The notes below the pieces were generated by a model, which saw only the letters and a program-made list of their open reading frames with translations, searched no databases and was not told the DNA's origin. The position numbers and the translations under genes are program-made. A stretch of DNA of 64,000 nt, taken from positions 372,001 to 436,000 of the forward strand of contig NZ_JACOFT010000002.1 of the NCBI RefSeq assembly GCF_014699135.1, given 5' to 3'. Of the stretch, positions 12,478 to 26,932 are shown piece by piece. The first letter of the stretch is position 1. Each line of letters starts with the position of its first letter. The stretch comes from Cognatundibacterium aquatile. Its GTDB lineage: Bacteria > Pseudomonadota > Gammaproteobacteria > Burkholderiales > Burkholderiaceae_D.

Positions 12478-15400
12478 TCAACAAAAATCGCGGCTGCTGA
12501 CGGCCAGCTCGCCCAGCAGATGCGACATATCCACCAGCCGCTTGGCGACCAGATGGCAGACTTCATTCTGGCGTTGCCATATTCCATAGACACCCAATAA
12601 GCGCGCGCCCAATACCTCGCGCCTTTGCTGCTCCAGCAGCGACGGCCAGATAATCACATTCACCGGGCCGGTTTCATCTTCTATCGTCAAAAACAAAACG
12701 CCATTGGCGGTTCCCGGGCGTTGTCTGACGGTGACGATGCCGCAGGCGCGGGCAAACTGATCTTGCTGAAAAGTGTTGAGTGTTTCTGCCGGCAGAAACC
12801 GTTTCGCCAGCAATTGCGTGCGCAGCAAGGCCAGCGGATGGCGTTGCAAAGTCAACCCCATGCTGTGGTAATCGCTGAAAATTTCTTGTGCTTCTGAAGG
12901 CGCGCGCAGTTGTGGTGCGGTTTCCTGCAGCGTGGTCGGGCGCAGTAAATCTTTATCCGGCATAGAGCCAACTGCCTGCCACAAAGCCTGACGCCGGTGA
13001 CCGGCGAGCGAGACGAGGGCGTTGCCTGCGGCCAGCACCTGCAAATCGTGGCGGCTCAGTTCTGCGCGCCGCGCCAGATCGGTGACATCGGTAAACGCCT
13101 GTTGCTGACGCGCTTGCTGTATGCGCAGCGCTGCCGCTGCCGACATGCCATTCAGCAAGGACAGCCCCAGACGCACCAGAGGTTGTGGCGTCTGGGTGTA
13201 GCGGTTGAAATGCATGTCCGGCTCGAGCGAGGTATCCCAGTTGCTGTGCATGACATCGACGGCGCGCACCTGCACATCGTGGCGGCGTGCGTCTTGCAGT
13301 AACTGTGACGGCGAGTAAAAACCCATCGGTTGCGAATTCAGCAGCGAACATAAAAAAATCGCGGGTTCATGGCGTTTAATCCAGCTGCTGACATAGGCCA
13401 GAATGGCAAAGCTGGCGGAATGACTTTCAGGAAAACCGTATTCGCCAAACCCTTTCATCTGCTCGAAGATGCCTTCGGCGAAGGTCTTGCTGTAACCATT
13501 GCCAACCATCGCATTGACGATGCGGTCATGGTAAGACTCCAGCCCGCCTTTGCGTTTCCAGGCTGCCATCGCGCGCCGCAAGCCATCGGCTTCGCCTGCG
13601 CTGAAGTCGGCAGCGAGCATGGCGATCTGCATCACTTGTTCCTGAAAAATAGGAACACCGAGCGTGCGTCCCAGCGCTTTCTGCATTGCCGGATCATGAT
13701 ACGTTTCTACCTTTTCGAGCCCCTGACGTCGCCGCAGATACGGGTGCACCATGCCGCCTTGTATCGGCCCCGGACGCACAATCGCGACTTGCACCACCAG
13801 ATCGTAAAATTCGCGCGGGCGCAGGCGCGGCAACATGCTCATCTGCGCCCGTGATTCAATCTGGAACACACCGACGGTATCGGCTTTGCAGATCATGTCA
13901 TAGGTGGCGACGTCTTCGCGCGGAATGTCCTGCATCGTGGATGGCTTGCCGGGGAAAGCCGCCATCATGTCGAGTGCCCGCTTTAATGCCGATAACATGC
14001 CGAGCGCCAGCACATCGACTTTCAGCAAACCCAGCGATTCAAGATCGTCTTTATCCCACTGAATCACACAGCGGTCTTTCATGGCAGCGTTTTCTATCGG
14101 CACCAGCCGCGATAATTTACCCCGTGCAATTACGAAGCCGCCGCTGTGTTGTGACAGATGGCGCGGAAACCCTAATAAACGCGTTGCCAATGCAGCCCAT
14201 TGCTGCGCCAGCATGGAATGCGTATCGAGACCGCATTCTTCAAAGCGATTCAGTAAATCCTGTTTGCTGTCGAACCAGCGGTGGGATTTTGCGACGGCAT
14301 CAATAATCGCCAGATCAACGCCCAGCGCCTTGCCGACTTCGCGTAGCGCACCGCGCGGGCGATAGGTATGCACCGCGGCCGCCAGCGCAGCACGATTGCG
14401 GCCATATTTGTTGTAGATATATTGCATTACCTCTTCACGTCGCTGATGTTCAAAATCGACGTCGATGTCTGGCGGTTCGCCACGTTCTTTGGAAATGAAG
14501 CGTTCAAACAGCAGGGTGTTCACTTCGGGATTCACCTCTGTGATGTGCAGGCAATAGCAAACGACGGAATTCGCAGCAGAACCGCGCCCCTGACAAAGAA
14601 TATCCTGGCTGCGGGCAAATTTGACGATATCGTGCACCGTCAGAAAATAAGGCTCGTACGCAAGATCATTAATCAGGTGTAGCTCATGTTCTATCGTTGC
14701 CGCGATGCGATCCGGTATGCCTTTTGGATAACGCAGATGCGCACCAGCCATGACTTCCTGTCTCAGATAGAGCGCGGGTGTCATGCCGGCGGGCACCAGT
14801 TCATCTGGGTATTCATAGCGCAATTCATCCAGAGAGAAATGGCATAAGCTGGCAATGCGCAGCGTTTCAGCCAGCGTTTGCGGCGGATAAATACTGGCCA
14901 GCCGCAGCCGTGAGCGCAGATGTTGTTCTGCATTCGGCGCCAGTGCATAGCCGCAATCAGCAACAGCTTTACCCAGACGTATCGCTGTCATCGTGTCCTG
15001 TAAAGGCTTGCGCGAGCGTACATGCATGGTGACATGGCCTATCGCGACGACCGGTAACGCATATTCAGCGGCGATATGGCTGACATGCTGCAATTGATAA
15101 GCATCAGATAATTGCAGCAGCAGATTGAGCCCCATCCAGCTGCGTTGCGGAAAGACCTGCGCACACCAGGCCGCCTGTTGTGCCAGAACGGCGGGGCGCA
15201 GAGGATATTCCGGTACCAATATCAGCAAACAATCCGGCATGTTGGCAAGGTGTTCATAACTGGCTGGCGGATGGCTGAAATCGGTGGTGTTGAGCAAATA
15301 GCTGCCTTTCATGCAGCGGCTGCGTGCCAGTGTGATGAGCTCAGACAGATTGCCATAGCCTTCACGGTTGCAGGCCAGAATAATCAGCGTCGGCCCCGGC

Positions 15401-15681
15401 ATACCATTCTCTGTTTCAGTCAGTTTGAAATAAGCGCCGACCATCAGCGGCAGCGCATGTTTTTTTGCTTCCTCATGCGCGCGTACGATGCCCGCGAGAG
15501 AACATTCATCCGTTATCGCGATGCCCTGATAGCCGAGATTCACCGCGCGTTTGACTAACTCTTCGGCATGCGATGCCCCTTCCAGAAAACTGAAATTCGA
15601 GAGGCAGAATAATTCTGCGTATCCGGGCAATTGATGGCCAGCAGGCGCAGCGACGTTGGACTCTTGATCATCACTGCGCAT
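12478..15681 (-). CDS. dnaE2: DnaE2 (ImuC), error-prone DNA polymerase III alpha-like subunit
   Basis: The 1067-residue C-family polymerase works in SOS mutagenesis with ImuA and ImuB. It has an N-terminal PHP domain (LFCLSNFSFLEGASHAEEL, ITDECSLAG), the palm with catalytic Asps in PPDIDVDFEHQRREEV and LKVDVLALGM, the fingers motif FQIESRAQMSMLPRL, and a C-terminal OB fold (GIVTVRQRPGTANGVLFL). It is shorter than replicative DnaE, as expected for DnaE2. Its ATG overlaps the imuB stop by one base (TGATG). Transcription should come from the LexA-controlled promoter before imuA. Confidence 0.95.
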   Translation of the reverse strand: MRSDDQESNVAAPAGHQLPGYAELFCLSNFSFLEGASHAEELVKRAVNLGYQGIAITDECSLAGIVRAHEEAKKHALPLMVGAYFKLTETENGMPGPTLIILACNREGYGNLSELITLARSRCMKGSYLLNTTDFSHPPASYEHLANMPDCLLILVPEYPLRPAVLAQQAAWCAQVFPQRSWMGLNLLLQLSDAYQLQHVSHIAAEYALPVVAIGHVTMHVRSRKPLQDTMTAIRLGKAVADCGYALAPNAEQHLRSRLRLASIYPPQTLAETLRIASLCHFSLDELRYEYPDELVPAGMTPALYLRQEVMAGAHLRYPKGIPDRIAATIEHELHLINDLAYEPYFLTVHDIVKFARSQDILCQGRGSAANSVVCYCLHITEVNPEVNTLLFERFISKERGEPPDIDVDFEHQRREEVMQYIYNKYGRNRAALAAAVHTYRPRGALREVGKALGVDLAIIDAVAKSHRWFDSKQDLLNRFEECGLDTHSMLAQQWAALATRLLGFPRHLSQHSGGFVIARGKLSRLVPIENAAMKDRCVIQWDKDDLESLGLLKVDVLALGMLSALKRALDMMAAFPGKPSTMQDIPREDVATYDMICKADTVGVFQIESRAQMSMLPRLRPREFYDLVVQVAIVRPGPIQGGMVHPYLRRRQGLEKVETYHDPAMQKALGRTLGVPIFQEQVMQIAMLAADFSAGEADGLRRAMAAWKRKGGLESYHDRIVNAMVGNGYSKTFAEGIFEQMKGFGEYGFPESHSASFAILAYVSSWIKRHEPAIFLCSLLNSQPMGFYSPSQLLQDARRHDVQVRAVDVMHSNWDTSLEPDMHFNRYTQTPQPLVRLGLSLLNGMSAAAALRIQQARQQQAFTDVTDLARRAELSRHDLQVLAAGNALVSLAGHRRQALWQAVGSMPDKDLLRPTTLQETAPQLRAPSEAQEIFSDYHSMGLTLQRHPLALLRTQLLAKRFLPAETLNTFQQDQFARACGIVTVRQRPGTANGVLFLTIEDETGPVNVIIWPSLLEQQRREVLGARLLGVYGIWQRQNEVCHLVAKRLVDMSHLLGELAVSSRDFC

Positions 15682-17297
15682 CAGCCAAAGACCCCATGCA
15701 AAAACCAGCGCGGCGCATTGCTTTCAGGATCGCTGGAACGTTCGCGGTAGATCCAGTAACGGACATGATCTGCGCTGGTGGCGACAAAATAATCGCGGGC
15801 CTGGGTTTGTGTCGTCCACCAGCCCGCTTCTATACGTTCTGCAGGTGAAACTATCGTCAGAATTGACCGGTAATACGGGCGATGTTGCCGCAGCGTCAGA
15901 GGCAGTGGCTGCGGCAATAACCATGCGGGTCTGTGGAGCAGGGCGGCAGCAGGCACATCTGCACCTGCCGGGCGTTTTTGCATGACTGATATCCATTGAT
16001 TCGCAATTTCAGGCCGGTGATCGGCCAGTGGCGCGGCTTGCAAGACATGATCCTCGCCCAGCCGGGCCACCAGCAAGGCCAGCAAACGCTGATGGTCTTC
16101 TGGCTTTCCTCCCGGCTCTGGAAACAAAGATTCGCTTTGCACATCAAGCGCAACCGTCTCTGGCGCCTCCAGCACCAGCGCTATCACCGCAGATGGCAGG
16201 CTGAGTTGCGCTAACTTTTCTTTCAACAGGGGTAGCAAATGTTCGTCTTGCCAGCAAGCCTCTGCCATGGCGATATGCAGTATGCTTGGTGCGACTGCCT
16301 GACGACCGCGCTCATGCTGCAACTGCAGGCGGATTTGCTTCACAGCGAGGCGATGCGCGCTGAGCCAGCCCGTTAATTGCCTGAGCAAACTATGGCAATA
16401 CGTCAGCATCATATCGCTGCGCTCCAGCCTGTCAGGTAATTCCAACCGGGCATGGAATTGCGGCGCTGCCACGATCCAGGTAAATAAAGTGCTTTGCCTG
16501 CCATAGACCTGATCCAGCTCATCCAGCAAGGCTTTACCAAAACGGCGTTGCACGCCAGCGCGTGGCAATTGTTGCAGATGAAAAAGCGCGTGACATGCTA
16601 GCCCTTGTAATAATTCCAGGCAGGGACGGGCATGTGTCAGCAGACTGACTGGCAGCATATTCAGTCGGGCGGGCAAACGCTGCGCATGCAAACACTGCGC
16701 GCCGGATTGGTGCTGGCGCGCAGCGTCACGGGCTAAGATGCAGGCGGCTTTGGCAAAGGGGGCGCAGGCAATGGTGGTATGCAAACCCAGTATTTCCATG
16801 GTTTGCCGTACATGCTGACGCAATGCACGCAAGCCACCGAAGAGACGCAAACTGGCACCGACATCGAGCACGATGGTGGCTTCTTCTGCGATGGCTACCT
16901 GCGGCGTATATCGCAACAAGGCGATGGCGGCAGCCTCTAAGGCATTTTTTTGTCTGACTAAATCCCGCTGAAACAACTTTGCCGTTGGTAGCAACATGAG
17001 AACGCCACCACGCCGCATACCTGCGCGTACGCCAGCCTGTTGCGCTGCCTCAGACATCGCTGCCACACGGTTTTGTTGCAAGACGACGCTGCCGTGATCT
17101 TCTTTGCGCCGCTGCCAGCACGGTAAAAATACATCCAGCTCAAGCAAAGGGAAATGTACGGCCAGCCAGAGCTGCATTGGCGCAGCCGACGTACTGGCCG
17201 TTGCGGATTTGCGCGATCTGTCTGACGACATTTCTGTATTTGCATCTGCATCTACATTGATTTTTCGTTCATGTCGCGGAGGGAAGTGCGCCGTCAT
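15681..17297 (-). CDS. imuB: ImuB, Y-family-like mutagenesis accessory protein
   Basis: ImuB resembles a Y-family polymerase that has lost its catalytic acidic residues and acts as a hub linking ImuA, DnaE2 and the beta clamp. The 538-residue product starts its recognisable domain at about residue 41 (MQLWLAVHFPLLELDVF), followed by the little-finger region and a basic C-terminal part. The annotated ATG at 17297 has only a weak AAGG-type site; ATG 17177, beginning MQLWLAV, is an alternative start that removes a low-complexity N-terminal tail. It sits 42 bp after imuA and is coupled to dnaE2. Confidence 0.9.
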   Translation of the reverse strand: MTAHFPPRHERKINVDADANTEMSSDRSRKSATASTSAAPMQLWLAVHFPLLELDVFLPCWQRRKEDHGSVVLQQNRVAAMSEAAQQAGVRAGMRRGGVLMLLPTAKLFQRDLVRQKNALEAAAIALLRYTPQVAIAEEATIVLDVGASLRLFGGLRALRQHVRQTMEILGLHTTIACAPFAKAACILARDAARQHQSGAQCLHAQRLPARLNMLPVSLLTHARPCLELLQGLACHALFHLQQLPRAGVQRRFGKALLDELDQVYGRQSTLFTWIVAAPQFHARLELPDRLERSDMMLTYCHSLLRQLTGWLSAHRLAVKQIRLQLQHERGRQAVAPSILHIAMAEACWQDEHLLPLLKEKLAQLSLPSAVIALVLEAPETVALDVQSESLFPEPGGKPEDHQRLLALLVARLGEDHVLQAAPLADHRPEIANQWISVMQKRPAGADVPAAALLHRPAWLLPQPLPLTLRQHRPYYRSILTIVSPAERIEAGWWTTQTQARDYFVATSADHVRYWIYRERSSDPESNAPRWFLHGVFG

Positions 17298-17339
17298 GTT
17301 TCAGCCTTTTTCAAGCTTTCTTAACCTTTTTTGCATCAC

Positions 17340-18116
17340 TCAGCTGGCATGCTTAGGTTGCACATGATCGCGAAAAACAGCGGAAACTTTGTGCGGGACG
17401 GATGTCGCTCTGGTTGGCATGGAAGATGATATTTCCGGCGCACGCGGGCTGATGTAGGGATTGAGATGCGGATTGAGATACGGATGATCAGGTAAATACA
17501 AAGGCAGCGGCGCCTCGCGCAAAGCCCCGCGTCGTTTCAGTAAATGTACTTGCAGACCAAATGCTGTCGGCCGCACGCTGACACGTAAAGGCGCAGGCGA
17601 TGCGGAGGTCGCAGCACGCAGTGGTCGTATCAGGCAAAACAAAGTCTCTGATGCTTGTGCTGCCAGATGCAGCCGCCGTAATGCCTCGTTGCGTATCTGT
17701 GACTGCCAGAATAGCAATGTGCCGCAACTGCCATGCCGCAATATTTGCTCTGCGGCCCACAAACTGTCTGCATGTTTATCGCAAGCCACCCACAGCAATT
17801 GCGATGAAGGCATTTGCTGACTCAATAAAGCCGTGGCTTGTGGCGTGTAGGGCGGGGCCAGTAAAGCAAGCGGGCGCGACCCCATTTTTTTGATCGCTGG
17901 CAATAACAACCGCAACTCTGCTGTGCCTTCTTGTTCGGTCAGTATTTCCGTCAGTTGCCCTAATGGCCAGCCGCTATCCGGCAACTCCCGGTTCAGCGCT
18001 ATATAACCGCTTGCCACTGTTTTTGCGGCACCGTGCGCGAGTTGCGAGGCGCGCCAGAGTGTGGGGTGCAGGTCTTGCAGGCCATTCAAAAAAGGGATTT
18101 GCGTATTGTTATTCAT
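17340..18116 (-). CDS. imuA: ImuA, SOS-inducible RecA/SulA-like mutagenesis factor
   Basis: The 258-residue product is the first gene of an imuA-imuB-dnaE2 cassette. Recognisable features are the N-terminal WRASQLAHG segment, SGWPLGQLTEILTEQEGTAELRLLLPAI (here split across residues ~48-75) and the later RRGALREAPLPLYLP region typical of beta- and gammaproteobacterial ImuA. It is a RecA-fold relative without a full Walker A loop. A canonical LexA box ends 18 bp before its start codon, so it is expected to be induced by DNA damage. Confidence 0.9.
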   Translation of the reverse strand: MNNNTQIPFLNGLQDLHPTLWRASQLAHGAAKTVASGYIALNRELPDSGWPLGQLTEILTEQEGTAELRLLLPAIKKMGSRPLALLAPPYTPQATALLSQQMPSSQLLWVACDKHADSLWAAEQILRHGSCGTLLFWQSQIRNEALRRLHLAAQASETLFCLIRPLRAATSASPAPLRVSVRPTAFGLQVHLLKRRGALREAPLPLYLPDHPYLNPHLNPYISPRAPEISSSMPTRATSVPHKVSAVFRDHVQPKHAS

Positions 18117-18300: not shown

Positions 18301-18507
18301 TATTTTATGTTAAAGTACTTTCTATGGACAAACGATGAGTCAGTGATGAATGAAAGCCTCGCTGAACGATGCACTCGATGATGTCCTTCACGATCTTTTT
18401 TGTATCAGGGAAGTTCGCATTTTTCTGTAGTGACCGGAAATGCTCTGTGTTTCAAGTGTCAGAGAAAAAGTATGAACTGCCTTTATAACCAACCCGGAGA
18501 TTCATTT

Positions 18508-18735
18508 ATGGCATACCTCGACCAGTCTTTTGATACGCGCTTCAGTCTGCAAATGTCGCCAACTTCTTTTTTACTGCGCTTAGGCCGTCGCGAGATATTT
18601 GTCTGCCGCGATTACAGACAACGTGCGTATTACGTCAATCCCGTATTGGATTGCTCCACAGGCATACAGGCCGGGCATCTGGAAATTTTGTTCTGCAAGA
18701 AATGGCTGATTATTTTATCCAAGGCAAACTGGTAA
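18508..18735 (+). CDS. Small protein of unknown function, possibly SOS-controlled
   Basis: The 75-residue product has GGAG (18496-18499) eight bases before ATG 18508. It is hydrophobic/aromatic and basic, with FLLRLGRREIFVCRD and YYVNPVLDC segments and three Cys, and no clear membrane span or known domain. I recognise no family. It lies 208 bp downstream of a LexA box on the same strand, so it may belong to the DNA-damage response; the long leader leaves this open. Confidence 0.6.
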   Translation: MAYLDQSFDTRFSLQMSPTSFLLRLGRREIFVCRDYRQRAYYVNPVLDCSTGIQAGHLEILFCKKWLIILSKANW

Positions 18736-18879: not shown

Positions 18880-19497
18880 TCAGGGTCGCAGTATCAGAGT
18901 GCCGATATAGCCAGCGGGCAACGTCAGTGCATAGCTGCAGCAGTCTTTTAAAACTGATGCCATCTGTTGCTGAACGTGTTCGTCGTACTCCGTCATGGCA
19001 ATGCCAGCACATTTAAAACGTGCTTCCATCATCGTCCAGCACTGCGCAAACAGCGCTGCGCATTCATCGTCTTGCGCCTGTTGTAGTGCTGCGATTTGCT
19101 GAGAGCTGAAATAGATACCGGCAACATTCTGCCAGTCATCGATGGGTTTGATTGCCATCAGATCGATACCCGGCAGTTGTTTCTGACTGATGGCGGCTAC
19201 CGATAAACCAGGCTCATGGCTGACGGAAATAAAAATTTCTTGTGTGGCGATGATGCATTGCAATCTGCTACCAGCGATACGGATCAGTCGTATCTGTTCC
19301 GCTGTACAAGAAAATGCCTGCATCAATAATTCAGTGATGGCGAGATGCAGTTGTTGCCTGGCGACTTCGCGCTGAAGGTTTTGCGAGAAAGACAGGCTGA
19401 TCACCACATTGGACTGTTGACTGAAATAGTCCAGAGCAGACAGACATTGTTCTTCCCAGTCAAATACCGCAAAAGCTGGCAAGCTTAGACCTTGCAT
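18880..19497 (-). CDS. Sfp-type 4'-phosphopantetheinyl transferase, divergent
   Basis: The 205-residue protein (from ATG 19497) looks like a Sfp-superfamily enzyme, which attaches phosphopantetheine from CoA to carrier-protein serines. It has SVSHEPGLSVAAIS, the metal-binding PGID and the CWTMMEARFK motif corresponding to Wx(x)KExxxK. Two usual residues differ: the acidic residue two positions after the GID Asp is Met, and the motif Lys is Met, while the Asp and the Glu remain. It follows the Pls-like synthetase by 17 bp and is the obvious candidate to prime its carrier domain. A start at 19551 would overlap the synthetase end and is less likely. Confidence 0.72.
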   Translation of the reverse strand: MQGLSLPAFAVFDWEEQCLSALDYFSQQSNVVISLSFSQNLQREVARQQLHLAITELLMQAFSCTAEQIRLIRIAGSRLQCIIATQEIFISVSHEPGLSVAAISQKQLPGIDLMAIKPIDDWQNVAGIYFSSQQIAALQQAQDDECAALFAQCWTMMEARFKCAGIAMTEYDEHVQQQMASVLKDCCSYALTLPAGYIGTLILRP

Positions 19498-19514
19498 GTC
19501 CGTCTCATTCGTAC

Positions 19515-22500
19515 TTATTTTCCCGTCATCGCAGCTGGGCAACCGCGCCAATGCGAATTGGCAGGAATGAATTCCCCTTTCATCACCAGCGTCAGCGCTC
19601 CCAGGCTTGCACCGTTACCGACAACGGCGCTGTACAACACGGCACTGCGCGGCCCCATGTAAACGCGTTCACCGATGTTGACGTGATCAATTTTCATGAC
19701 GCGATCTTCAAACAAATGAGTTTGCGGGCAGGCGAGGGCATTGATTTCGCTGTGCTCGCCAATGCTGACGCAATCAAATTCAGTAATATCCGTGGTATCC
19801 ATATATACACCGCGCCCAATTTTGCAGCCGAGCAGATTGAATGCCAGCGGTAACCACGGTGTACCACGCAGATAACGCATGAAATTCGGCACAGCAATCC
19901 CTTCGTATAAATTGGTAATGCCTTCCGATAACCAGACAAATGGTGTCCACATGGGTACGCTGGCTTTCTTGTAGCGGAAAATCAGCAGCCATTTCAGTAC
20001 CAGTACAAAGACAAAGCTGCCTATCCCATACAGCAGACCTGCCGCGACCAGGTAGTACAGCACTTCAGCCCAACGGTCTTCTCCCGCCAGCGGCATCAGA
20101 TCAAGAACGACGGTGTAGCCGACGGCAATGACCATCGCATGGGGCGCAATAATCCGGAAAGTTTCGACCAGCGTGCGTCCTATGCGTCGCATCACTGAAG
20201 GTTTGAACGTTAGACTTTCAGGGAAACCTTTGACCTCTTCGCGTGCCGGCAAATTGATCGGTGGTGAACCCAGCCAGGTATCGCCATTTTTCATTTGCGC
20301 ATTGTCTGGTGCGCAGGTATGCACGCCTATCAGCACATTTTCGGGCAATACTGTTCCATCCGGGATGTAGGCACCGTTGCCGACAAAACTACGCCGCGAA
20401 ATGATAGTTGGATGCATGGTCATCCAGCCACGATCTATCTGCTCATCGCCGAGTAATACGGCGTCGGCGATGAAGGTTTCATCGCCCAGTGTCAGCATGT
20501 CCGGCACCACGCCCAATGCCGTCGAAATTTCAGCGCCTTTGCCGACTTTGGCACCCAGCATCCGGTACCAGAATGGCGCATACACTGTCGCATACACGCC
20601 ATGCAGCACATTCAGACTCGATTCCTGAATTTGATTGACCAGCCACTTGCCGCAATAGATGTTGCCATGTACAGCATAACTACCGGGTGTTAACTTCGGC
20701 AAAATGCTCCAGCGTATGCCAGCAGAAAGCAGGGCTGTGCAAACGATCAGAACAGCTGTCGCCGGAAACGCGAGTATGAAATATTTGGCCAGTTGCAAAG
20801 GAACAGAATTGGTTTGCAACCAGGGGAAATTGTCTGCATTGTCAAACCAGTCTATCGTCACAAAGCTGGGGAAGACCGGCATAAAAAACAGCGCGCTGAT
20901 AAACAGCGAGCCTACGACGAAGAATGTATTTTCGCCGATTGCGCGCAGCTTACTGTAAGCTGGCCTCGCCGGATAAGCATTGGCATCAAATGCGCCGACA
21001 TCTTTTGCCGGTGATCCTTTCCAGATACGATCCCGTGGAATAGTCTGACCTTCCGCCAATGCTGATTGGCCTTCCAGATGCGCGCCTTCTTCCAAAACGA
21101 CATTTCCTTCGAGCACACAATACGAACCGACGTAGGCATCTTTGGCGATGTTGATGCTGCCGATCAAGAGCTGACCATGCTGTACCCGCACATTTTCCAG
21201 ATTCGTTGCATTACCTATGCTGGCACCGTCACCGATGGACAGCAAATCCGGCGCGCGCAAGGTAATGGAACCTATCATGACATCGCGGCCTATCTTCGCG
21301 CCGAGTGCACGTAACCACCACGAATACAATGCAGAACCGCTCAGCATATAGACTGGTGCGGCATCGACCAGCCGGTCTGCCAACCACCAACGGAAATACG
21401 TCACGCCCCACAGCGGATAACGTCCGGCTTTCAGTCGTCCGGCGATCAGCCACTTTCCGAGAATCGCAATCGCGAATTCTGCTACCGTCAATAACAAAAA
21501 CACGCCAACCGACAACAATACTGCGCGGGTAATCGAATCGCCGGGGTCGCCGGTAAAAAAATGGTAAGCAAAAAATGGCGTCAGCCATTGCACCATGCGC
21601 ATCGCCACCAGCCACGGCACCGTGGCTGCCTGCGCCGCGCCGCAGATCCAGCGTTTCCAGGCAGGTGCCGGGTTCCAGGTTTCCTGAGTATCAGCGAGGG
21701 TCGCATCCTGCAGCAGGCCAGCCGCCTCCAATACCTCAGAAATACCTTGCACACTACGTTTCTGATAGATGTCGGCAATCTTAAAATACGCAAACCGGGG
21801 ATGTTTTCGTAATACAGAAACCAGTTTTGCCGCCATCAGAGAATGGCCGCCAAGATCATTGAAAAAATCGGCGTTGCGCCGTATCGTCTGCCCAGGAAAT
21901 AAGCTTGCCAGCGCGCTGAACAACACTTCCTCGGTTGCGGACTCCGCGACGTCTGATTCGCCGGATGCGGCTACGGCTTGTAAGACACATCGTTTTAACT
22001 CGTTGCGATCGATTTTTCCCGAGGTCAGGCGCGGAACTTCATTCATAAATTCAAAGCGCGACGGCACCATATACGGTGGCAGAAGCGCGCTGAGTATGCC
22101 CCGTAAGCCTGCACCAAATTCAGCGTTGGATTGCGTCGCCATCGATGCAACCGTATTTTCTGCATGACTGTCTTCGCGGACGATGAAAGCGACGATCTGG
22201 TCTATACCCTGATCCTGACGCAAGACCACGGCCACGGTGCCGACTCCGGTTTGCTGGGCAAGAACGGTTTCAATTTCACCCAACTCAACCCGGAAACCAC
22301 GAATCTTCACCTGATCATCGGCACGTCCCAGACAGACCACGCTGCCATCCGGCTGTATGCAGGCAAGATCGCCGGTTCTGTACAAACGTGCTTCGTTTGC
22401 TTGTCTGGCCCACGGATTCAGCAGAAATTTTTCTGCCGTTAAATCGGGACGCCCGAGATAACCGGTTGCAACGCCCGGTCCCGAAATGCAAAGTTCGCCC

Positions 22501-23582
22501 GTTTCACCCCACGGCAATAGGCGCAAACCATGTTCAATATCGGTCGCAATCACCATCAGCGAATAATTCGGTAAGGGTTTGCCTATCGTCACGGCTTGTT
22601 GTGGCTGCAACGGCGCAAGACTGGCCGATACCGTTGCTTCTGTCGGGCCATAGGTATTAAACATCTGCCGCCCCGGCTTGCTCCAGCGATTGACCAGTGC
22701 TTCCGGGCACATTTCGCCACCAAGATTAATCAGACGCAGGCTGGCAACATCCTGCGAAAATAAAGCGAGCAGGGTGGGCACGGCATGTAATACGGTAATG
22801 TTATTTTCTGCAAGCGCGACAGGCAAAAGATCAGGGTCGGCAGTGATGGCTTTCGGTGCTATCCATAAGGTTGCACCAACCAGGTAACTGATCCAGATTT
22901 CTTCGAATGACATATCGAAGGCTACTGAAAAACCCTGATAGACGCGATCAGTCGATTGGATCCCTAACACCTGATTTTCACTGCGTAAAAAATGGCAGAT
23001 GCTGGACTGACTGACCAAGATGCCTTTGGGTTTTCCCGTTGAGCCTGATGTGTAGATCACATAGGCAGGATAATCTGGTTCACTGGCGCGACGTCGCAAC
23101 CATGTTTCTGGCTGATGTGCCGCCGCAGTTTCTGCGATCCAGACCTGATGACGCGATGAATGCAACTGCGCTTCAAACTCGGCACAACTCAGAATACCAA
23201 CGGCGTTCGCGTCTGCCAGACAAACGGCAATACGGTCAACGGGTGTGTCAGCATCAAAAGGCAACCAGGCTGCGCCTGTTTTCGCAATACCCGCCTGCAT
23301 CACCAGCAGATCAATGCCACGCGGCAACCACAAGCCCACGATTTGCCCGGGGCCGACTCCGGATGCAATCAGAAATGAAGCTACACGGTCGGCAGCCAGA
23401 TTTAACTCACCATACGTTATTGAACGATCTTCAAAAATCAGTGCCGTTTTGTCTGGATAAAGAGAGGCGCTAGCCTCCAGAATGTCAGCAAGAATTTCTT
23501 TACGAATCAGATCGGGTTGAGACTGTCCATACAAAATTCCGCTATCGGATGAGCTTACAAGGGTGCTGCTAGACGAAGGCAT
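19515..23582 (-). CDS. Pls/PosA-like membrane non-ribosomal peptide synthetase (A-T-TM/beta-helix)
   Basis: The 1355-residue protein has an adenylation domain (residues ~30-530: YTSGSTGKPKG, YGPTEATVS, YRTGD, GKIDRNELK), a carrier domain with LGGHSL (Ser581) and a C-terminal half with six predicted membrane spans (~651-680, 686-714, 886-905, 930-955, 1133-1163, 1174-1202). The spans bracket three hexapeptide left-handed beta-helix segments (~760-860, 1008-1110, 1250-1350). This order and length match epsilon-poly-lysine synthetase (Pls) of Streptomyces, whose three tandem C domains elongate an isopeptide chain at the membrane. There is no thioesterase or standard condensation domain. Asp223 in FDMSFEEIW is the alpha-amino-group ligand, so an amino acid is activated. 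The product is unknown. Confidence 0.85.
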   Translation of the reverse strand: MPSSSSTLVSSSDSGILYGQSQPDLIRKEILADILEASASLYPDKTALIFEDRSITYGELNLAADRVASFLIASGVGPGQIVGLWLPRGIDLLVMQAGIAKTGAAWLPFDADTPVDRIAVCLADANAVGILSCAEFEAQLHSSRHQVWIAETAAAHQPETWLRRRASEPDYPAYVIYTSGSTGKPKGILVSQSSICHFLRSENQVLGIQSTDRVYQGFSVAFDMSFEEIWISYLVGATLWIAPKAITADPDLLPVALAENNITVLHAVPTLLALFSQDVASLRLINLGGEMCPEALVNRWSKPGRQMFNTYGPTEATVSASLAPLQPQQAVTIGKPLPNYSLMVIATDIEHGLRLLPWGETGELCISGPGVATGYLGRPDLTAEKFLLNPWARQANEARLYRTGDLACIQPDGSVVCLGRADDQVKIRGFRVELGEIETVLAQQTGVGTVAVVLRQDQGIDQIVAFIVREDSHAENTVASMATQSNAEFGAGLRGILSALLPPYMVPSRFEFMNEVPRLTSGKIDRNELKRCVLQAVAASGESDVAESATEEVLFSALASLFPGQTIRRNADFFNDLGGHSLMAAKLVSVLRKHPRFAYFKIADIYQKRSVQGISEVLEAAGLLQDATLADTQETWNPAPAWKRWICGAAQAATVPWLVAMRMVQWLTPFFAYHFFTGDPGDSITRAVLLSVGVFLLLTVAEFAIAILGKWLIAGRLKAGRYPLWGVTYFRWWLADRLVDAAPVYMLSGSALYSWWLRALGAKIGRDVMIGSITLRAPDLLSIGDGASIGNATNLENVRVQHGQLLIGSINIAKDAYVGSYCVLEGNVVLEEGAHLEGQSALAEGQTIPRDRIWKGSPAKDVGAFDANAYPARPAYSKLRAIGENTFFVVGSLFISALFFMPVFPSFVTIDWFDNADNFPWLQTNSVPLQLAKYFILAFPATAVLIVCTALLSAGIRWSILPKLTPGSYAVHGNIYCGKWLVNQIQESSLNVLHGVYATVYAPFWYRMLGAKVGKGAEISTALGVVPDMLTLGDETFIADAVLLGDEQIDRGWMTMHPTIISRRSFVGNGAYIPDGTVLPENVLIGVHTCAPDNAQMKNGDTWLGSPPINLPAREEVKGFPESLTFKPSVMRRIGRTLVETFRIIAPHAMVIAVGYTVVLDLMPLAGEDRWAEVLYYLVAAGLLYGIGSFVFVLVLKWLLIFRYKKASVPMWTPFVWLSEGITNLYEGIAVPNFMRYLRGTPWLPLAFNLLGCKIGRGVYMDTTDITEFDCVSIGEHSEINALACPQTHLFEDRVMKIDHVNIGERVYMGPRSAVLYSAVVGNGASLGALTLVMKGEFIPANSHWRGCPAAMTGK

Positions 23583-24004
23583 AAGTATTCAGAAGTGGTG
23601 ACGACGATTGTTTAATTGTTTTAATTATTACTGGCAGCGTTGATAGTTGATCTGGATCAGAAAGCGGGAATAACGCGCAATGTCGATAGAGTGAGAGTTT
23701 ATCATTTCGGGAAAGTAAATAATGTCGAAATAGCGCACTTAGCAACATCTGTTTCTATTTATTGCGCATGATCATATTGCGTATGATTAAAAACCGGACT
23801 CGATCTTGTCCGTTCTTGGAATAACCAAAAAAAGACGATGCTGCAGGAAAGCGATTGACCATACTGAAGTCTGTCAGCTATGGTTTGCATTAGATTATTT
23901 GATATATAAGATCAATTACATAAGATCAATAAAATCTACGAGGATTTCTCAGTTAGCGCCGTTAGCAATCGTGTTTAGAACGACTGATCGTCATTTTTTT
24001 GCCC
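23583..24004. other. Intergenic region between two divergent genes, A+T-rich with short direct repeats
   Basis: No gene is evident. It should hold the promoters of the Pls-like synthetase (left) and the CHASE-GGDEF-EAL gene (right). Two pairs of direct repeats are seen: ATTGCGCATGATCA at 23761-23774 with ATTGCGTATGATTA at 23776-23789, and ATAAGATCAAT at 23906-23916 and 23920-23930. Confidence 0.5.
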
Positions 24005-26932
24005 ATGTTAAAAAAAGAAAACCTCCCCAGCAGTTTCCTGTTCATTCCATGGGTCATTCTGATTTTTGGATTGGCGCTTACTTATGCACTGCAGGATACG
24101 CCCCGTGAGGCGAATCGTCAGGCGCTGCACGATGAGTTCGAATACAGATCAAATGAGATCATTGACAATATCAACCGACGATTACAGAACTATGAACAGG
24201 TTCTGGAAGGTGTGGCAGGTCTGTTTACTGCCTCCCATAAAGTCACTCAGGCTGAATTCAGCCGTTACGTAGAGACGCTGAAGTTTGAAGATAAATTTCC
24301 GGGCATTCAGGGCGTGGGTTTTGCCCGTTTTGTTAAGTCGAAAGAAAAAGCAGAGCACATCGCCGTCATGCGCGCGACCGGATCAAAAGAATACGATATC
24401 CGGCCATCAGGTGAACGCGAGATATACGCTCCGATTACTTATCTGCAGCCGCCCAACTGGCGCAATCAACGCGCAATCGGCTATGACATGTACTCGGAAA
24501 CCGTTCGTCGTGCTGCGCTGAATAAGGCAACAGAGGAAAATACAGCCATCATTTCAGGTAGGGTAAAACTTGTACAGGAGACTGACCAGGACGTGCAGGC
24601 GGGCTTTCTCATGTATATGCCCATTTACCGCTTGCATAGCAAGCATGCCAACATCGAAGAGCGGCACGAGAATATTGAAGGTTGGGTGTATGCGCCGTTT
24701 CGCATGAATGATCTGATGACAGGGATACTCGGTCATCGTTTCGACGAGAGCAGCTCGCCTTTTCATCTGCTCATCTATGACGGCAATTCAATTGACAAAA
24801 GTCAGTTGATGTTCGAGTCAAAACAAATCACAGAGAACAATAATTCTGCTTTTCGTACGACGAAGGTGTTGAATCTATTCGGGCACGAGTGGAGTATCGT
24901 CATTAGTTCATTGCCAACGTTCGATGCCAGATTGAAAAGTGACAGGGCAAATATTATTGCTGCGACCGGCAGTATCGCCAGCATACTCTTAGCGATCGTG
25001 GTGTGGCTGTTGGTCACTGGACGCTCCCGCGCATTGGCAATCGCACGTAGTATGACGAGTGAATTAAGACAAAGCGAAGCGGAGCAAAAGAAACTCAATC
25101 GAGCACTAAGACTCATCAGCGACTGTAATATCGCGCTGTCACGTAGTGAAAACGAACATCATCTGTTGTCCGAAATTTGCCGCTTGTGCGTAGATAATGG
25201 TGGTTATCTGATGGCTTGGGTTGGCTATGCAGAAGAGGATCAGGCGAAAACAGTGCGCCCAGTTGCGCAAGCTGGCTATGAAAGCGGCTATCTGGAAACG
25301 ATTAATATTTCGTGGGGTAACAATCAACAGGGACAAGGCCCGACTGGTACCGCAATCCGGACAGGTACGCCACATATTATTCAGAATATCCTGACGAATG
25401 CCAGTATGGCGCCGTGGCGCAAAGCTGCGTTAGAACGCGGCTATCAGTCCAGCGTTTCCTTACCGCTGATCTGTGATGCAAAAATTCTCGGTGCTTTGAA
25501 TATTTACTCTTGTGAAGCAGATGCCTTTGATCCGGCAGAAGTGCAGCTACTGGAAGAACTGGTTGACGACATAGCTTATTGCATTGTCAGCTTACGCACG
25601 CGTGCAGAAAATGCAGAAACCAGAGAGAAACTGGAATTCCTGACGAATTTCGATCCCTTGACCAATCTGCCAAACCGCTTGTTGTTACGCGATCGCTTTG
25701 ATCGTGCAGTCATTGTCGCCAACAATGAAAACATGACGGTCAACATGCTCTATCTCGATCTTGATCACTTTAAACAAATCAATGACAGTCTGGGCTACGG
25801 CATCGGCGACCAGATACTGCTAGAAGTGGCAAACCGTTTGCAGCATAGCATTCCGGCGACAGCCACGATGAGCCGTCTGAGTGGTGACGAATTCGTGATT
25901 CTGCTTACGGGAAAATATGATGTTCCGGGAATTGCAGAGGTTGGCAATACGATCTGCGAGGCATTTTCCACACCATTCACCATCAATAACGATGTCGTGA
26001 ATCTGTCCTGCTCAATTGGGATAGGACTGTATCCTATCGATGGCGATGATTTTGACACCTTATTAAAACACTCTCACACTGCTTTAAATAGTGCAAAAGA
26101 AGCAGGGCGCAATACTTACCGCTTCTTTACACGGGATATGAATGCAGGTCTGGTTGAGCAAATCCGTTTAACCGGAGGCTTATCCAGCGCGGTACGCAAT
26201 AATGAGTTCGTGCTTCACTATCAACCTCAGATTGATATCAAAAGCGGAAAAATCATCGCTGCGGAGGCGCTGATACGATGGCAACATCCGATGGATGGAC
26301 TGATTGCACCCGGTAAATTCATCGGGCTTGCCGAGCGCAGTGGTCATATTATTCAGATCGGTGAATGGGTCATCAACGAAGCGTGTCGCCATGCGCGGGC
26401 GTGGCAGGATAAATATCCTGTGCCACCAGTGGTAGCAGTCAACCTCTCGGCCTTGCAATTCAAACGCGGTGATGTCCTTAAAATCGTCAGTAATGCACTT
26501 GCTGTTTCCGGCTTGCGACCAGAACTTCTGGAACTGGAACTGACCGAATCAATTCTGCTGCAGGACGTCGAAACAACTATCAAGTCTTTACACGGTTTGA
26601 AAGAATTAGGCATCAAACTGTCGATTGACGATTTCGGAACCGGATATTCCAGTTTATCCTATCTGAAGCGACTCTCTGTCGATAAGCTTAAGATAGATCA
26701 GTCATTTGTCCGGGATATGCTGAGTGATTCTGATGGAGCATCTATCGTCAAGGCCATCATTCAATTAGGCCATACCCTACAGTTATCGGTCATTGCGGAA
26801 GGCGTTGAAACCGCCGAGCAACTAGCCTTTCTGGAGGCGTCAGCTTGTGACGAGGCGCAAGGATACTTATTCAGCCGTCCCGTGCCTGTTGAACAGTTTG
26901 TGCAATTAATCGCGCAGGATGAGCGTAGATAA
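24005..26932 (+). CDS. CHASE-GAF-GGDEF-EAL membrane regulator of cyclic di-GMP
   Basis: The 975-residue protein (ATG 24005; a TTG two codons earlier is also in frame) has an N-terminal membrane span, a periplasmic CHASE sensor domain (~65-290, with GIQGVGFARFV and AIGYDMYSE), a second span (~315-335), a GAF domain (~375-530), a GGDEF domain with SGDEF (~625) and an EAL domain. EAL motifs appear intact: EALIRWQHP, ELTES, IDDFGTGYSSL and IAEGVE. SGDEF is compatible with cyclase activity and the EAL set with phosphodiesterase activity, so the net direction is undetermined. CHASE ligands are small extracellular molecules. No strong ribosome-binding site is visible. Confidence 0.9.
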   Translation: MLKKENLPSSFLFIPWVILIFGLALTYALQDTPREANRQALHDEFEYRSNEIIDNINRRLQNYEQVLEGVAGLFTASHKVTQAEFSRYVETLKFEDKFPGIQGVGFARFVKSKEKAEHIAVMRATGSKEYDIRPSGEREIYAPITYLQPPNWRNQRAIGYDMYSETVRRAALNKATEENTAIISGRVKLVQETDQDVQAGFLMYMPIYRLHSKHANIEERHENIEGWVYAPFRMNDLMTGILGHRFDESSSPFHLLIYDGNSIDKSQLMFESKQITENNNSAFRTTKVLNLFGHEWSIVISSLPTFDARLKSDRANIIAATGSIASILLAIVVWLLVTGRSRALAIARSMTSELRQSEAEQKKLNRALRLISDCNIALSRSENEHHLLSEICRLCVDNGGYLMAWVGYAEEDQAKTVRPVAQAGYESGYLETINISWGNNQQGQGPTGTAIRTGTPHIIQNILTNASMAPWRKAALERGYQSSVSLPLICDAKILGALNIYSCEADAFDPAEVQLLEELVDDIAYCIVSLRTRAENAETREKLEFLTNFDPLTNLPNRLLLRDRFDRAVIVANNENMTVNMLYLDLDHFKQINDSLGYGIGDQILLEVANRLQHSIPATATMSRLSGDEFVILLTGKYDVPGIAEVGNTICEAFSTPFTINNDVVNLSCSIGIGLYPIDGDDFDTLLKHSHTALNSAKEAGRNTYRFFTRDMNAGLVEQIRLTGGLSSAVRNNEFVLHYQPQIDIKSGKIIAAEALIRWQHPMDGLIAPGKFIGLAERSGHIIQIGEWVINEACRHARAWQDKYPVPPVVAVNLSALQFKRGDVLKIVSNALAVSGLRPELLELELTESILLQDVETTIKSLHGLKELGIKLSIDDFGTGYSSLSYLKRLSVDKLKIDQSFVRDMLSDSDGASIVKAIIQLGHTLQLSVIAEGVETAEQLAFLEASACDEAQGYLFSRPVPVEQFVQLIAQDERR

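Follow-up and report, generated by a model that had tools for sequence, protein, structure and literature searches.

The window, by which we mean the whole stretch of 64,000 nucleotides that was analysed, carries on its reverse strand a gene for a PosA-like synthetase and next to it a gene for a Sfp-type 4'-phosphopantetheinyl transferase (PPTase). Their features are listed in Table 1. The single open frame of 1355 residues described in a first-pass annotation of this DNA, made by a model from the letters and their open reading frames, was confirmed. The genome is 3.9 Mb in size, and the nearest named relative at the synthetase locus is Undibacterium rivi (L034), whose best segment is 96% identical. 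Undibacterium is placed under Oxalobacteraceae in the lineage listing.

Table 1. Features of the synthetase/PPTase locus, in window coordinates.
Feature	Position	Strand	Basis
PosA-like synthetase (A-T-terminal domain), 1355 aa	19515..23582	(-)	ORF; TIGR02353 839.7 bits; closest PDB chains 8g95-8g98
Adenylation (A) domain, residues ~12-535	21978..23549	(-)	Pfam; pocket DMEHNGTVSK; 303/489 identical to PosA
Carrier (T) domain, residues ~545-625; S581 codon 21840-21842	21708..21950	(-)	PP-binding; LGGHSL; Ser in 145/145 rows
Terminal polymerising domain, three homologous repeats (membrane-helix pair and left-handed beta-helix each)	19518..21665	(-)	TIGR02353; hhalign; model
Third repeat, residues 1131-1355, proposed active site (predicted function)	19518..20192	(-)	Family conservation, unmatched in repeats 1 and 2
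Proposed-site residues, third repeat: E1220, E1268, Q1287, H1289, E1292, K1297, Y1317, K1335, E1337
Sfp-type 4'-phosphopantetheinyl transferase, 205 aa	18880..19497	(-)	ACPS Pfam 34.0 bits vs cut-off 25; fold model; Foldseek

Within the A domain of the synthetase, Pfam recovered AMP-binding (residues 35-376) and AMP-binding_C (436-523). For the T domain, PP-binding scored 20.3 bits in the Pfam search of the protein, just short of its 20.8-bit cut-off, and 25.1 bits, above the cut-off, in the genome search. The serine of its LGGHSL motif is residue 581, which is kept in every one of the 145 aligned rows, window included. Pfam and the conserved S581 thus confirm the adenylation domain and LGGHSL carrier of the first-pass annotation, which had also seen no thioesterase. 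Indeed, Pfam found neither a thioesterase nor a condensation domain in the synthetase at E 0.1, and the sole matches in a motif scan (HH...DG, GHSLG, GYS.G, G.S.G) were two of the G.S.G type at residues 786 and 1324, both of which fall within beta-helix stretches. Residues 650-1350 matched TIGR02353, the Pls/PosA family, over profile positions 2-695 of 695, and with the curated cut-off of 423.1 bits passed, the proposed Pls/PosA-type architecture is borne out. The C-terminal half could also have been an ordinary hexapeptide acetyltransferase, a candidate that we rejected, as hexapeptide matches in the PDB were weak (best E 4.6e-7, 31.6 bits) compared with the full-length match to TIGR02353.

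AlphaFold modelled the terminal domain with six long helices arranged as three pairs, plus beta-helices, in agreement with the six membrane spans noted before. Hydropathy alone (threshold 1.5) found five of the six model helices, missed the first and gave extra stretches at 118-136 and 1315-1333. Two of five models reached a mean pLDDT of 74-75 and the other three 47-57; the best had a mean pLDDT of 75 and a pTM of 0.80. The worst-modelled part is the third repeat, with a block pLDDT of ~46-63 around the conserved residues. The model, motif counts and repeat homology also agree with the three hexapeptide beta-helix segments of the first-pass annotation. Hexapeptide-motif matches in the three stretches numbered 8, 4 and 4, compared with shuffle means of 0.75, 0.51 and 0.55, and none occurred in three control stretches of the A domain. 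Since the maxima of 500 shuffles were 4, 4 and 5, the profile evidence is stronger than the motif count for the second and third stretch. According to hhalign, the repeats (C1, C2 and C3) are homologous with probabilities of 99.9% (C1-C2), 99.9% (C1-C3) and 99.5% (C2-C3). Comparison of the model with hexapeptide acyltransferases and gamma carbonic anhydrases gave local matches only, with TM-scores (query length) of at most 0.16 among the 50 matches listed, and a solved structure of the whole terminal domain was found neither by PDB sequence search nor among the fold matches listed. An approximate threefold symmetry of this domain had already been predicted (PMC10522769), in a source that reports no structural information on the Pls/PosA terminal domain as of 2023.

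The ACPS domain and the predicted Sfp-like fold of the adjacent gene bear out its earlier assignment as Sfp-type, with the start moved to a probable ATG at 19497, 17 bp past the synthetase stop. A start at TTG 19551, inside the synthetase gene, is less likely. The PPTase model, built with an alignment of 18 sequences chosen by hand (A1), has a mean pLDDT of 93.9. Its top Foldseek matches were 4mrt (Sfp with CoA and carrier), 2c43 (AASDHPPT) and 1qr0 (Sfp), and the first nine matches, which are all those with E <=0.001, are every one a PPTase. By sequence, the protein had no match in the PDB at E 0.01. Columns invariant in 18 of 18 sequences include R43, R47, S91, D112, W154, E158 and K162, and we take D112, W154, E158 and K162 to have the same catalytic roles as in Sfp. 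All 18 sequences carry a non-acidic residue (Met in the window; consensus GIDLM) two places past the invariant Asp, a position at which Sfp has Glu; going by this position, the group has a divergent metal-binding motif.

When frames of at least 100 aa were clustered across 80 named loci, no recurrent exporter, ornithine-supply, peptidase or degrading gene was found beside the pair. The largest PPTase cluster stood at 42, and a conserved exporter, peptidase or precursor gene as partner was rejected, as no non-PPTase cluster occurred in more than 13 of the 80 loci. Downstream of the pair, at 12478-18116 (-), three frames resemble an ImuA-ImuB-DnaE2 mutagenic-repair cassette. These names were assigned by eye; the ImuA-like frame is without a Pfam match, and ImuA-like and ImuB-like homologues lie near the synthetase in 13 named loci each. 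The PPTase and the ImuA-like gene are separated by a small frame at 18400-18735 (+). It may be a genuine, conserved gene, since 5 of the 80 loci encode a similar protein downstream of the synthetase, on the opposite strand. The divergent neighbour at 23999-26932 (+) has CHASE, GAF, GGDEF and EAL domains and is a cyclic-di-GMP protein. Homologues of argG and argD were seen downstream of the synthetase/PPTase pair in five of the named loci (L053, L064, L065, L076 and L077), and NCBIfam identified argG, argF (ornithine carbamoyltransferase) and argD in L053. This is a possible ornithine-metabolism context, which we left out of the evidence.

The closest solved relatives of the synthetase in a PDB search are 8g95-8g98, the A domain of Acinetobacter baumannii PosA. 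Our PosA reference is the posA locus from strain VB958 of A. baumannii (L143); over 412 residues, the A domain encoded there agrees with 8g95 letter for letter. Identical positions number 303 of 489 (62%) in the A domain, 32 of 81 in the T domain and 380 of 699 (54%) in the terminal domain, with 727 of 1321 overall. The ten pocket residues of the window's A domain, DMEHNGTVSK, are those of the published PosA code, and the five substrate-contacting residues named for PosA (D217, M218, E221, T304 and S313) are all kept (PMC10522769). An A domain of the fatty-acid or aryl activation type, against which the first-pass annotation had asked for a check, is not what this pocket of an ornithine-activating enzyme indicates. 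A poly-lysine synthetase in the strict sense was likewise rejected, because the pocket has Met, not Ala, at the Met218 position (rule from PMC10522769). In the PDB search, the A domain matched PosA with 525 bits compared with 260 for 7WEW, the A domain of Pls.

The DMEHNGTVSK code is found in 114 of the 145 aligned rows, in 104 of the 135 clusters that these rows form at 99% identity, and in 79 of the 80 named loci. The alignment includes the window and excludes seven loci that stem from its own genome or are fragments (L001-L003, L114, L115, L141 and L142). Among its rows there is no lysine-type (Ala) pocket, so that the active-site conservation count given below excludes true Pls. Other codes include DLED.G.VVK, DFEALGTVTK and DFECLS.VTK, the last in two sequences that adjoin diaminobutyrate transaminase genes (L144 and L149), a setting that fits poly-Dab enzymes. 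In a 44-row tree (made by a quick method, with some long branches elsewhere, and excluding L148 and L150, which have no A-domain part), PosA and 23 other DMEHNG-pocket rows form one clade with 100% SH-aLRT, and the window lies inside it. Other pocket codes fall outside this clade, as does a row with a near code (L125, DMEHNGTVTK). On the basis of identity, pocket code, clade and the biochemistry of PosA, the window synthetase is, as judged from its sequence, a PosA orthologue in Undibacterium.

The three repeats of the terminal domain differ in what is conserved. A dense invariant set, Q-x-H-x2-E-x4-K...Y...K-x-E, characterizes the third repeat and is unmatched in repeats 1 and 2. Among 46 non-redundant sequences, Q1287, H1289, E1292, K1297, Y1317 and K1335 are present in all 46, and E1220, E1268 and E1337 in 45. 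Across the 145 rows, Q1287 is found in 145 and H1289, E1292, K1297, Y1317 and K1335 in 144, with a gap in the one other row. Most of the positions that align with this set in repeats 1 and 2 are variable. Three are not: 1220 is paired in C1 with an invariant Trp, Q1287 is paired in C2 with a residue that is Gly in 40 of 46, and at position 1241 all three repeats have Thr or Ser. Repeats 1 and 2 have (near-)invariant residues of their own (Q651, W725, Y729, R731 and W733; R1007, D1040 and N1069), which may be involved in carrier or chain binding. In hexapeptide acyltransferases, histidine is the usual base. Given this analogy and the conservation contrast, we predict one polymerising site, placed in the third repeat at H1289. 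As the third repeat is poorly modelled, the site is argued from conservation and not from geometry. The asymmetry between the repeats is not mentioned in the accessible parts of PMC10522769 and PMC8117764.

The synthetase gene is common in the window's family, where 74 of 195 sampled genomes scored above the TIGR02353 cut-off; in a sample of 398 genomes from the whole phylum 26 did so, with the own genome counted in both. Two of the 11 sampled genomes of the window's genus are without the synthetase (G119 and G154), and G119 has a second, more distant ACPS-family protein. A related PPTase lies directly downstream of the synthetase in 82 of 108 loci with enough sequence. Without duplicates (10 of the 30 loci L004-L033 duplicate a named locus at 99% identity) the count is 74 of 99; restricted to named loci, it is 60 of 79. 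Two loci with fewer than 600 bases downstream (L011 and L087) were set apart, each of which has a truncated PPTase-like frame there. Alignment A2 combines the window with 58 named loci; the rest of the 80 were more than 93% identical to a kept one or not placed.

A close-type PPTase, defined as scoring more than 100 bits with model A1 (a limit that we set within the empty score range from 74 to 108 bits), was present in 47 of the 195 genomes. The synthetase is also found in 46 of these 47, and the two genes are adjacent in 46 of 46. Counting two weaker fragments, 48 of the 74 synthetase genomes have the PPTase next to the synthetase (Fisher p 6e-24, uncorrected for relatedness). Among the remaining 26, 22 have another, more distant match and the other four have three ACPS-family proteins each, and priming can therefore come from elsewhere. 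As the linked PPTase is absent from these 26 genomes and from the A. baumannii locus, linkage is not required. The window's genome has one A domain above the NRPS cut-off, two detected PP-binding domains, namely the T domain of the synthetase and a 97-aa frame that is probably the fatty-acid ACP, and two detected ACPS-family proteins, namely a 140-aa AcpS-like frame and the PPTase. With two carriers and two ACPS-family transferases detected in the genome, the synthetase and the PPTase are probably a dedicated pair, and from adjacency and the carrier count we infer that the PPTase transfers phosphopantetheine to the T domain. A literature search, with most subscription papers outside its scope, found among the papers listed no earlier report of a PPTase paired with Pls/PosA synthetases.

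The first-pass annotation had left the product as either an amino-acid polymer or an amino acid attached to another molecule, and had described the products of Gram-negative homologues as mostly unknown. The latter is partly out of date, as PosA of A. baumannii has been characterised: primed with Sfp, it made 7-12-mers of delta-poly-L-ornithine in vitro and preferred L-ornithine over lysine by more than 160-fold (PMC10522769). Of the two outcomes we retain the polymer and narrow it to short delta-poly-L-ornithine, not poly-lysine, as the most likely product of the window synthetase, judging by its likeness to PosA. We consider it very unlikely that this Pls/PosA homologue polymerises lysine, 2,4-diaminobutyrate, 2,3-diaminopropionate or a mixture instead. 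Pocket rules predict and do not prove, and PosA itself weakly activates L-lysine and is about half as active on D-ornithine as on L-ornithine (PMC10522769, Table 1), but all five contact residues are kept, the sequences beside diaminobutyrate transaminase genes carry a different code, and the flanking CHASE/GGDEF/EAL gene and ImuA-like frame are unlike diamino-acid supply genes.

It seems to us very unlikely that, with no free polymer made, just one ornithyl group or a short tag is transferred to a lipid, glycan or other molecule. Such transfer would suit a membrane-bound domain whose beta-helix folds are similar to those of acyltransferases such as the maltose and galactoside acetyltransferases, and what PosA does in vivo is described as unsettled (PMC10522769). 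However, PosA, whose terminal domain is 54% identical, yields free polymer in vitro (PMC10522769), and the third-repeat signature is common to sequences with other pocket codes. The pairing could also be an accident of position, with the PPTase serving other carrier proteins, which we regard as highly improbable. The 26 synthetase genomes without a PPTase at the locus would be in line with this, and so would G064, which has a close-type PPTase and no detected synthetase. Against it stand the unbroken adjacency in genomes that have both genes, the detection of just two carrier domains in the window's genome, and Rhizobium and Shinella plasmids on which an annotated PPTase adjoins a Pls/PosA synthetase, so that the pairing extends beyond the window's family.

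According to our analysis, the locus is very probably an Undibacterium orthologue of posA together with its own priming enzyme. The PPTase would load phosphopantetheine onto S581, and the A domain would convert L-ornithine to the adenylate and then to a thioester on the carrier. In the membrane-bound terminal domain, the side-chain amine of free ornithine or of the growing chain would attack the thioester repeatedly, giving short delta-linked poly-L-ornithine that would be released without a thioesterase. We posit that catalysis may be confined to the third beta-helix repeat, where H1289 would act as general base surrounded by E1292, K1297, K1335 and E1337, and that repeats 1 and 2 may be structural or bind the carrier and the chain. 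As a tentative generalisation, about which we are rather doubtful, the three C segments of all Pls/PosA proteins might together make up a pseudo-trimeric membrane acyltransferase whose only active site lies in the third repeat (here H1289, E1292, K1297, K1335 and E1337), in which a hexapeptide-type enzyme and not a classical condensation domain would make the peptide bonds of a homopolymer, and the synthetase with its own PPTase might travel as a two-gene unit in many Proteobacteria.

For isopeptide-bond formation by the Pls/PosA terminal domain, the conservation contrast between the repeats points to a handful of residues for mutagenesis. The linked PPTase is a candidate native activator, where the published PosA work used Sfp (PMC10522769). 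A genome with one NRPS-type A domain and two detected carriers is furthermore a simple setting for finding the product and its role.

Compared with known systems, the PPTase shares its predicted fold and ACPS Pfam domain with Sfp, AcpT and HetI, the HetI and AcpT matches being weak and below their cut-offs. It differs from Sfp in having 16% identity in the fold alignment and no acid two places past the Asp in 18 of 18 sequences, where Sfp has one. Pls of Streptomyces albulus (A domain, PDB 7WEW) resembles the window synthetase in its A-T-terminal order and in its C segments, of which there are three in tandem, with six membrane helices (PMC10522769, PMC8117764). However, Ala takes the place of PosA's Met218 in the lysine enzymes (PMC10522769), and the actinobacterial operon partner is the peptidase gene pldII (PMC8117764), whereas the partner in the window is a PPTase. 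PosA of A. baumannii (PDB 8G95-8G98) agrees with the window in domain order, pocket code and clade, with 62% identity in the A domain and 54% in the terminal domain. It differs in its T domain, where just 32 of 81 positions are identical, and in its gene context, as posA forms an operon by itself (PMC10522769) and L143 has no annotated PPTase next to it. The locus belongs to a known kind of system, to which it adds a testable active-site proposal and a native PPTase pairing.
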